Assembly (NCBI RefSeq): GCF_028288205.1
Contig: NZ_JAQBOD010000011.1
Span: forward strand, 1-64,000
Length of the DNA stretch: 64,000 nt
Source of the DNA: Mucilaginibacter sp.
Lineage (GTDB): Bacteria; Bacteroidota; Bacteroidia; Sphingobacteriales; Sphingobacteriaceae
Reading direction: 5' to 3'
Positions 5,460-41,919 of the stretch are shown here, in pieces. Position 1 is the first letter of the stretch. Each line of letters opens with the position of its first letter. The translations under genes were made by a program, and so were the position numbers. The notes beneath the pieces were generated by a model. It saw only the letters and a program-made list of their open reading frames with translations. It had not been told where the DNA came from and made no database searches.

Positions 5460-5679
5460 TTTTGTTTCACGCGAGAGTGAAACAAAATGTAACAAGCGAA
5501 ACAAGATTTTGAGTTAAAGTATTGTTTATAAGCTAATTACCAAAAAGTGGTGAAACAAAATGTAACAACTTATTCGTCAGTACTTTTAAGTATGATTTTA
5601 TATTTATATGTTGATAATCAGATAGCTGCAAATTGCCTGATTTAGGAGTGATGAAACAAGATATGAATCACGTGAAACA
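5460..5679. repeat. Cluster of GTGAAACA/TGTTTCAC half-sites in the comM upstream gap
   Basis: TTTTGTTTCAC (5460-5470) and GTGAAACAAAA (5477-5487) form an exact 11-bp inverted repeat around GCGAGA. GTGAAACAAAATGTAACAA (5477-5495) is repeated exactly at 5550-5568. TGAATCACGTGAAACA at 5664-5679 differs from the parS palindrome TGTTTCACGTGAAACA at two bases. No gene is seen in the 5337-5884 gap. The same 8-mer is clustered at 29355-29657. Confidence 0.7.
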
Positions 5680-28877: not shown

Positions 28878-29312
28878 TTATTCAAAGTCGACTAATTTTG
28901 TTAATGGCCCGATGGCTTTTTTTAATAATTCCTGCTCCTCTTCTGTACAGGTTGCCTGGATGGCTTTGGTAAGCCATTGGTCGCGCTCATTGCGTACCTG
29001 CAATAGCGTTTGTTCGCCTTTTTTTGTTAACGTGATCAGCACTTTTCTTTTATCAGTAGCCGATGTGGTACGCGTGATATAGCCCAGTTCCAGCAAATGG
29101 GCCAATATACCCGACATGGATTGATTGGTAATCTTTTCCATTGCTGCTAATTCACTCGGTAGCATTTCTTTATGCTGCAATAATAAAAAAAGCACCGAGC
29201 GCTCCGTAAGTGAAAGCTGCTGCCCGGTGGTCGACTCTTTTCGAAGTTTTTTAATTAAGCGGCCCACGACAGTGCGCAGGTCCGAAACAAATTCTAAGTT
29301 CTTGTTATCCAT
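28878..29312 (-). CDS. MarR-family transcriptional regulator
   Basis: 144 residues. Winged-helix MarR fold: LSLTERSVLFLLLQHKEMLPSELA, the recognition helix region ITNQSMSGILAHLLELGYITR, the wing TSATDKRKVLITLTKKGEQ, and C-terminal dimerisation helices. It is the first gene of a pair with the MFS exporter. A 12-bp-arm dyad overlaps its own promoter region (29317-29344), suggesting autorepression relieved by a ligand. Confidence 0.92.
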   Translation of the reverse strand: MDNKNLEFVSDLRTVVGRLIKKLRKESTTGQQLSLTERSVLFLLLQHKEMLPSELAAMEKITNQSMSGILAHLLELGYITRTTSATDKRKVLITLTKKGEQTLLQVRNERDQWLTKAIQATCTEEEQELLKKAIGPLTKLVDFE

Positions 29313-29354: not shown

Positions 29355-29657
29355 TGTTTCACAAGCATAAATGACATGTTAGGGTAATTTTGCACCAAAC
29401 GTTTTTGTAATGTATCCTGCCGGTGCAGTAGCGGTTGGTATATTAAAAAAGATGATATAGTGTTTCACAAAATAATGAAACACATGAAACACTCTTTTAG
29501 GTTAACTTATTGATTTATATTAATTTAACAAAATGAGTGAAACACTTTGAAACAGTACAAAAGCTTTAGGTAAAATAGTATAAATCACTTACAATAAGTA
29601 TTTTATGCTGTTTCATCAATTTTTGCAAATTTGTGGTGAAACACCTGATGTGAAACA
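29355..29657. repeat. Second cluster of TGTTTCAC/GTGAAACA half-sites
   Basis: Exact copies start at 29355, 29461, 29537, 29636 and 29650; one-mismatch copies (ATGAAACA or TGTTTCAT) start at 29475, 29484 and 29609. The region is AT-rich and holds no gene. The same motif is clustered at 5460-5679. Confidence 0.7.
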
Positions 29658-29683
29658 CTTTTTTTTGGAGAGGAATTTAAGCG

Positions 29684-30169
29684 TTATTTCTTTTTCTTAG
29701 GCGGCATCATCCCCGGCCGCTTTTTTACCGGCGATATAGATTTGGTTATGGTTGTCCCTTTAGGCGCATTTGTCAGGTCTTTTGCTTTGCCAACCGAAAA
29801 CGCATAAGCATCGGCCATTAGCTTTTTGATGTAATCCTGCGGCAGGTCCTTTTTTTCTTTGATGATGATATAGCGATACTGGCTGCCGTTACCTAATAAA
29901 ATCTTTTCCGGATCGGGAATTTTTGATCCCCAGTAAAACCCAAGGTGCACATACTTATCATTAAATACAGCAATAGAGCAAAAGGTATCGCCCAATGTAT
30001 GAGACGGCGACCAGCCAAACGCCAGGGCGTTATAGTTATCATAGATCAGTTCGTTGCATTCGGGATAAAGCTCCCACACAAAATCGCGCAGCCATAGGGT
30101 TAGCTCCTGTATCCCTGGGGTGAACGGGCGCAGAAATAACAAGAGGTCGGCATTATCTTCTTTTGCCAT
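29684..30169 (-). CDS. DUF1801 domain protein
   Basis: I start at MAKEDNADLLLFLRPF; the track ORF adds 24 residues that include a cysteine-rich, non-conserved leader. 161 residues. The YdhG/DUF1801 fold is shown by IQELTLWLRDFVWELYPECNELIYDNYNALAFGWS, FCSIAVFNDKYVHLGFYWGS and KDLPQDYIKKLMADAYAFS. A basic tail (SPVKKRPGMMPPKKKK) follows. Related to the frataxin-like YdhG family, biochemical role unknown. Cytoplasmic. Confidence 0.85.
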   Translation of the reverse strand: MAKEDNADLLLFLRPFTPGIQELTLWLRDFVWELYPECNELIYDNYNALAFGWSPSHTLGDTFCSIAVFNDKYVHLGFYWGSKIPDPEKILLGNGSQYRYIIIKEKKDLPQDYIKKLMADAYAFSVGKAKDLTNAPKGTTITKSISPVKKRPGMMPPKKKK

Positions 30170-30368
30170 TATATTTAAATTAATAAAACAGGTCAAAAAT
30201 GGACATACGGATGGTTTACAACATAAATGTAAACAATTCATCTATTTTGTTACTTATCAGCTTCTTATTTTTGCTTATATTAGTTTCCCGGTTTAACATT
30301 TAACGCATAATTTATTATCCTTTTTGCAGTTTAAAGATTGAATACCGGTATTTTAGTGACGGCAATTT

Positions 30369-41605: not shown

Positions 41606-41853
41606 AAGCATCGGATATTATTGCATCATTAGGCGTAATGCTATTATTAATAGCGTTTTTATTAAATTTATACAAGAAAATACAGGCAACAAGCAGGGCT
41701 TATTGTTTTATGAATTTTATAGGAGCGGCGCTTTGCGGCCTCTCCTCTTATATGATAAGCTTCTATCCTTTTGTTATTTTAGAAAGCATTTGGGCGGGGT
41801 TTGCATTGGTATCATTCTTTAATGTTCCACGTGGAACACCGGAAAATGAATAA
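41602..41853 (+). CDS. Small membrane protein, CBU_0592 family
   Basis: 83 residues with two to three transmembrane helices ([58 protein letters not shown]). This matches the CBU_0592-like family of unknown function. The C-terminal [10 protein letters not shown] is encoded by the first parS palindrome (41823-41838), so the parS site is partly inside the gene. Translationally coupled to the ABC-F gene. Confidence 0.82.
41823..41838. other. parS-type centromere site 1
   Basis: TGTTCCACGTGGAACA, a perfect 16-bp palindrome fitting the bacterial parS consensus TGTTnCACGTGnAACA bound by ParB. Lies within the end of the small membrane-protein gene. Confidence 0.88.
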
Positions 41854-41864
41854 ATAAAATCAAA

Positions 41865-41880
41865 TGTTCCACGTGGAACA
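41865..41880. other. parS-type centromere site 2
   Basis: Second exact TGTTCCACGTGGAACA, 42 bp after the first. Confidence 0.88.
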
Positions 41881-41903
41881 TTTGCAAAAAAGAAAACATA
41901 GTA

Positions 41904-41919
41904 TGTTCCACGTGGAACA
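41904..41919. other. parS-type centromere site 3
   Basis: Third exact TGTTCCACGTGGAACA, 39 bp after the second and ending 11 bp before the mnmG start codon; bound ParB could repress mnmG. Confidence 0.88.

Follow-up and report, generated by a model that had tools for sequence, protein, structure and literature searches.

The window, meaning the whole stretch of 64,000 nucleotides of DNA of the soil bacterium Mucilaginibacter that was analysed, carries at 29.4 kb a dense array of short boxes between two genes, which raises the question of what kind of element such an array represents. The original prediction regarded it as the second of two arrays of one chromosomal organisation element, 24 kb apart and perhaps recognised by ParB or a relative.

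The array in the window and its relation to parS

The array lies in a non-coding gap between a MarR-family gene (28878-29312, minus strand) and a gene with a weak match to DUF1801 (29684-30241, minus strand), and the predicted absence of any gene between 29312 and 29684 is confirmed. A scan of the window locates exact copies of GTGAAACA at 29355(-), 29461(-), 29537(+), 29636(+) and 29650(+), and copies with one mismatch at 29475(+), 29484(+), 29547(+) and 29609(-). The five exact copies and the presence of both orientations are as predicted, whereas the near copies number four instead of three. The heptamer TGAAACA is kept in all nine boxes. The window contains 13 exact copies of GTGAAACA, against 1.8 expected, a number reached in none of 100 shuffles; nine TGAAACA boxes fall within 303 bp, compared with a maximum of three in 200 window shuffles. 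The features of the window that are relevant to the analysis are as follows.

5462..5659, plus strand: type B repeat unit (the first array of the original prediction), one of ~40, with a further box at 5673
29355..29362, minus strand: isolated GTGAAACA in the MarR upstream region, ~100 bp outside the repeat and absent from the aligned unit
29400..29458, plus strand: left outer module, diverged, resembling a module (..GCCGGTGCAGTAGCGGTTGGTATATTAAAAAAGATGATAT) found in about half of the type A copies (alignment and flank comparison)
29459..29665, plus strand: type A repeat unit, 207 bp (blastn against the own genome; 30-copy alignment with sharp edges)
29461..29467, minus strand: box 1, inverted, TGTTTCA, geometry position 0
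29476..29482, plus strand: box 2, TGAAACA (+15)
29485..29491, plus strand: box 3, TGAAACA (+24)
29503..29515, minus strand: IHF/HU-type consensus WATCAANNNNTTR between the left and middle box clusters, conserved in type A
29538..29544, plus strand: box 4, TGAAACA (+77)
29548..29554, plus strand: box 5, TGAAACA (+87)
29609..29615, minus strand: TGTTTCA in the window copy, TGTTTTA in most type A copies (alignments)
29637..29643, plus strand: box 6, TGAAACA (+176)
29651..29657, plus strand: box 7, TGAAACA (+190), at the right terminus TGTGAAACACT
41823..41919, plus strand: three perfect 16-bp parS-like palindromes TGTTCCACGTGGAACA, directly upstream of mnmG/gidA

The repeat unit thus extends from 29459 to 29665, and the box at 29355 is not part of it. 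Its left terminus, AGTGTTTCACA, and its right terminus, TGTGAAACACT, are mutually inverted. Outer modules of roughly 30-115 bp on the left and 25-85 bp on the right are present in only part of the copies. Some type A copies (L040, L035 and L045) are located within larger intergenic units that start with TAATAGCC and end with GGGCTATTA, possibly a further repeat family.

Binding of the boxes as half-parS sites by ParB or a Noc-like paralogue is an obvious explanation, since GTGAAACA is identical to one half of classical parS, TGTTTCACGTGAAACA (consensus as given in PMC10197239). Nevertheless this explanation is hardly tenable. The boxes of the arrays are mostly head-to-tail heptamers and do not form the 16-bp palindrome. 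A search of the whole genome for parS with up to two mismatches returns, besides the three TGTTCCACGTGGAACA sites, a single near-match at an array, in one type B copy (at 5664), and none in the 29.4-kb array. The genome contains one ParB-domain gene, which adjoins parA. The TGTTCCACGTGGAACA sites form one cluster, as is typical for parS sites, which are few and mostly grouped near the origin; they are likely the real ParB sites of this genome, and they suggest that the window is situated near the replication origin. The arrays, in contrast, number ~78 on dozens of contigs and are not confined to the origin region. On the palindrome search and the single ParB, an identity of the arrays with parS was rejected, and the predicted recognition by ParB is not upheld. 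The near-match itself, TGAATCACGTGAAACA at 5664-5679, forms the right end of the type B copy, differs from parS at two positions and is not conserved in other B copies.

Copies, types and box geometry

A search with the array stretch against its own genome (G000, 3.9 Mb in 67 contigs) yields 39 matches, nearly all with 84-91% identity over a core of ~207 bp. Searches, combined with scans that cover contig C50 entirely and contig C55 for the most part, bring the copies in this 67-contig draft to ~37 of type A and ~40 of type B, i.e. ~78 arrays spread over dozens of contigs. The two type A matches of half length result from contig ends and do not represent split copies. All 60 copies that were examined are intergenic, often facing gene 3' ends. 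The predicted recurrence of arrays therefore stands, but the first array (5463-5679) belongs to a related, different repeat type, with inverted termini TTGTTTCAC and GTGAAACAA. Type A copies are ~90% identical to each other, the identity between A and B being far lower, and type A corresponds to type B minus one box of ~10 bp.

The box TGAAACA is common to all types, and in types A, B and C the geometry of the boxes is fixed despite sequence drift between them. Each copy of ~200 bp contains 7-8 heptamer boxes, arranged in three clusters at fixed helical spacing. According to a pattern scan of the genome contigs, the boxes of the Mucilaginibacter copies occupy positions 0(-), 15(+), 24/25(+), often 33/34(+), 77 or 87/88(+) and 87 or 97/98(+), with additional right-hand boxes in A and B near 176/189(+) and 190/203(+). 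This arrangement is kept in nearly every listed Mucilaginibacter copy, across types with diverged interiors. The middle boxes are present in 71 of 78 pattern hits, and five of the seven exceptions come from two viral contigs and three unrelated bacteria. These five hits (L321, L322, L351, L367 and L390), which lie outside Mucilaginibacter and JABDBW01, are without the later boxes and appear to match by chance. In type C the right-hand boxes are absent from most copies, so that terminal inverted repeats are not a universal property of the repeats. Type D, represented by loci L144-L162 of the genome G011, differs in geometry from A, B and C; two boxes in inverted and two in direct orientation lie at its left end, and it also has a conserved TTTGTCAGTA segment. 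The base that follows the heptamer also depends on the type, being mostly C in type A, A in type B and mostly G in type D, which could give every type its own protein.

The boxes are under strong constraint. Variable alignment columns of type A amount to 0 of 49 within the boxes versus 57 of 158 elsewhere (P = 2e-8), and those of type B to 4 of 49 versus 74 of 149 (P = 7e-8). A match to the IHF-type consensus occurs in 31 of 35 type A copies, nearly always at one position, and in 22 of 26 type B copies, mostly at another place than in A, compared with ~4% of shuffled copies; as the copies are related, this conservation of a candidate IHF-type site is only suggestive.

Distribution, turnover and spacing of the copies

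The own genome has 198 pairs of TGAAACA boxes within 25 bp, G061 has 128, M. corticis (G064) 41 and G011 39, whereas other congeners have only a few to ~20 and a reversed-pattern control gives ~1. The repeat is thus abundant only in some Mucilaginibacter lineages, and most congeners are without arrays. Named carriers are M. corticis MAH-19, which has type C, several Mucilaginibacter MAGs (among them RYN_323, RYN_331 and RYN_313) and one 'Bacteroidetes bacterium' MAG. Type A has no match in the phage collection and type B a single short, weak one in the plasmid collection. In the Mucilaginibacter literature no paper on these repeats was found.

Comparison of orthologous loci reveals gain, loss and exchange of copies. 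The locus at 29-30 kb, including the repeat, is conserved in the sister genome G157 (88%), whereas in G064, G061 and G162 the two genes are separated by 73-90 bp instead of 360 bp and the repeat is missing between them. Of 25 type A copies in G157, ~17 correspond to type A loci of the own genome and about a third are without counterpart among the compared loci; for ten own-genome copies traced through their flanking sequences, no full type A is found at the matching G157 locus. At one orthologous site the own genome has type A (L036, C64:29309) and G157 type B (L306, C92), while the right-hand outer module is shared, and at two loci M. corticis and G061 have the same neighbouring genes but repeats of different sub-type. 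A clean insertion does not account for all differences between filled and empty sites, and the outer modules complicate the definition of the ends. In less related species, copies lie beside orthologous genes in 17 pairs, compared with roughly 5-11 by a rough chance estimate, which hints at preferred or maintained positions. One G157 copy (L287, C156) joins the flanks of two type A copies of the own genome, L047 and L050, either by rearrangement through the repeat or by misassembly. Synteny with G157 is broken around 24919, the initial 24 kb of the window having no syntenic counterpart on the same contig of G157.

Random positions of the arrays, which the original prediction had set against its proposal, are not what is observed. 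The pooled spacing of neighbouring A and B copies has a coefficient of variation (CV) of 0.58 versus 0.95 for the null, none of 3000 simulations being as low; the positions were analysed in a 67-contig draft, and the spacing tests were conceived after these positions had been seen. A complete scan of C50 (247 kb) and of the first 144 kb of C55 returns exactly the known copies, five each, so that missed copies are not the cause of the even spacing. The evenness resides in copies of the same type: among pairs closer than 20 kb, A-A pairs number 0 against 6.7 expected and B-B pairs 2 against 8.2, whereas A-B pairs number 13 against 15.7. When labels are permuted with positions fixed, leaving out one doubtful B locus, 1 same-type pair stands against 12 mixed pairs below 20 kb (P = 0.0018). 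The closed chromosome of G011 shows the same tendency for type D, with a CV of 0.56 versus 0.93 (P = 0.005) over 19 loci, an approximate figure because one of the loci has two boxes only, and no two loci lie closer together than 49 kb (P = 0.006). The copies of M. corticis look clumped among contigs rather than even, at low power, as they are too few. Exclusion thus acts within a type over ~20-30 kb, while A and B ignore each other, a pattern closer to transposition target immunity than to a general role in organising the chromosome.

Known systems and candidate explanations

The repeats share several properties with bacterial MITEs and small interspersed repeats such as Correia/NEMIS, RUP and ERIC, which are likewise ~100-200 bp long, non-coding, A+T-rich, intergenic, multi-copy and lineage-specific. 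They are short, non-coding and dispersed in many copies, and types A and B, in contrast to most copies of type C, have inverted termini; the 155-bp Correia element also contains an IHF-type site (PMC2229807), as these repeats appear to do. Unlike in MITEs, no target-site duplication and no parent insertion sequence were found, and 7-8 ordered boxes at fixed helical spacing are combined with type-specific spacing exclusion. REP/BIME elements with their RAYT transposases are also dispersed and extragenic, often at gene 3' ends; the present repeats are longer, have no covarying hairpin and have no RAYT family near the copies, no transposase family being recurrent in 869 neighbouring ORFs. The ends of Mu, Tn7 and Tn3 are arrays of transposase-binding sites, which in Mu also involve a host bending protein. 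These transposons exclude further insertions of themselves over long distances (PMC7350765, PMC11406308), and here a type-specific exclusion over kilobases is found statistically, at the P of 0.0018 for 20 kb and without depletion of A-B pairs. In contrast to these transposons, the repeats measure only ~200 bp in all, no transposase gene was found beside the copies, and the 5-bp duplication that accompanies Mu, Tn7 and Tn3 is not seen. With no target-site duplication found, the element is not classed as either a MITE or a member of the Mu/Tn7/Tn3 group.

Several explanations have to be weighed against each other. Each type might be bound by its own host nucleoid protein, with even spacing selected because the copies serve as anchors of loops or domains. 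The even spacing, the strict box geometry, the strong constraint on the boxes and some positions common to distant species all agree with such a function, yet we consider it unlikely: a general role predicts mutual avoidance of A and B, which are not spaced against each other, and arrays are absent from most species of the genus and differ in presence between sister species. The genome-wide recurrence, the binding-site-like geometry and the over-even spread speak for the chromosome-organising element originally proposed. The type-specific nature of the even spacing, the lack of arrays in most congeners and the differing presence in sister species weaken the case for a role across the whole chromosome. 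Mapping relative to origin and terminus was attempted in G011, where the GC skew of twenty 20-kb samples is too weak to place the origin.

Alternatively, the repeat may be mobile-like and owe its same-type spacing to selection against homologous recombination among similar copies that lie close together. The ~90% likeness of A-A copies, with A-B copies far less alike, would fit this, as would the G157 locus with joined flanks if it arose by recombination and not by misassembly. The explanation is quite improbable, however, because deletion should remove direct pairs, whereas the five same-type pairs closer than 31 kb comprise four direct and one inverted, and because recombination between 200-bp repeats is rare at 20-30 kb. 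Stable folds are predicted (z of about -3.3 and -4.0), so that a structured RNA or single-stranded-DNA element, either REP/BIME-like or a small RNA, must be considered, but it is very improbable. The predicted pairs derive largely from the inverted boxes, and two-sided changes are seen in 1 of 31 predicted pairs for type A and 0 of 8 for type B; with no covariation in the A or B alignments, a conserved fold was rejected. No recurrent gene family, such as the REP-associated transposase, lies beside the copies. Rfam gives two tRNAs only and no match to the repeat, which discards a known RNA family.

The best explanation, to which we assign a probability of roughly 0.5, is that the repeat is a non-autonomous, mobile-like interspersed element with binding arrays for a putative type-specific protein. 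A type-specific DNA-binding transposase or recombinase, acting in trans, would bind the boxes and form a nucleoprotein complex, possibly assisted by a bending protein at the IHF/HU-like site. Such a complex could spread the element into intergenic gaps and, on a resident copy, would block insertion of the same type nearby, like the target immunity of Mu, Tn7 and Tn3. The cis-immunity of Mu peaks near 5 kb and declines from 5 to 25 kb, and that of Tn3 and Tn7 reaches further (PMC7350765), so that the observed range of exclusion fits these systems. By this analogy the repeat probably works like a target-immune mobile element. In 56 A and 31 B copies, matching flanks show no consistent excess at any tested offset that would indicate a target-site duplication, no transposase, integrase or other family is recurrent among the 869 neighbouring ORFs, and no gene was seen between the ends of a copy. 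The original prediction had named decayed copies of one transposon as the contrary outcome; copies of a mobile element largely describe what is found, although these copies are intact and not decayed. More tentatively, types A, B, C and D may be orthogonal ordered arrays, each with its own protein and spacing independently, and would then constitute a tiny element with long-range type-specific exclusion, whether by immunity or by a domain function. We know of no short bacterial repeat with this property.

Short dispersed repeats are commonly regarded as passive debris, whereas the present ones keep a fixed array of boxes like those bound by proteins. If the exclusion reflects insertion immunity, the repeats would provide a natural genome-wide record, in a 200-bp element, of a process whose main known examples are Mu, Tn7 and Tn3, and would point to a new DNA-binding protein with type-specific recognition. 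If they have a host function instead, they would represent chromosome-organising sites of a new kind in Bacteroidota. Both readings are directly testable in cultured Mucilaginibacter.
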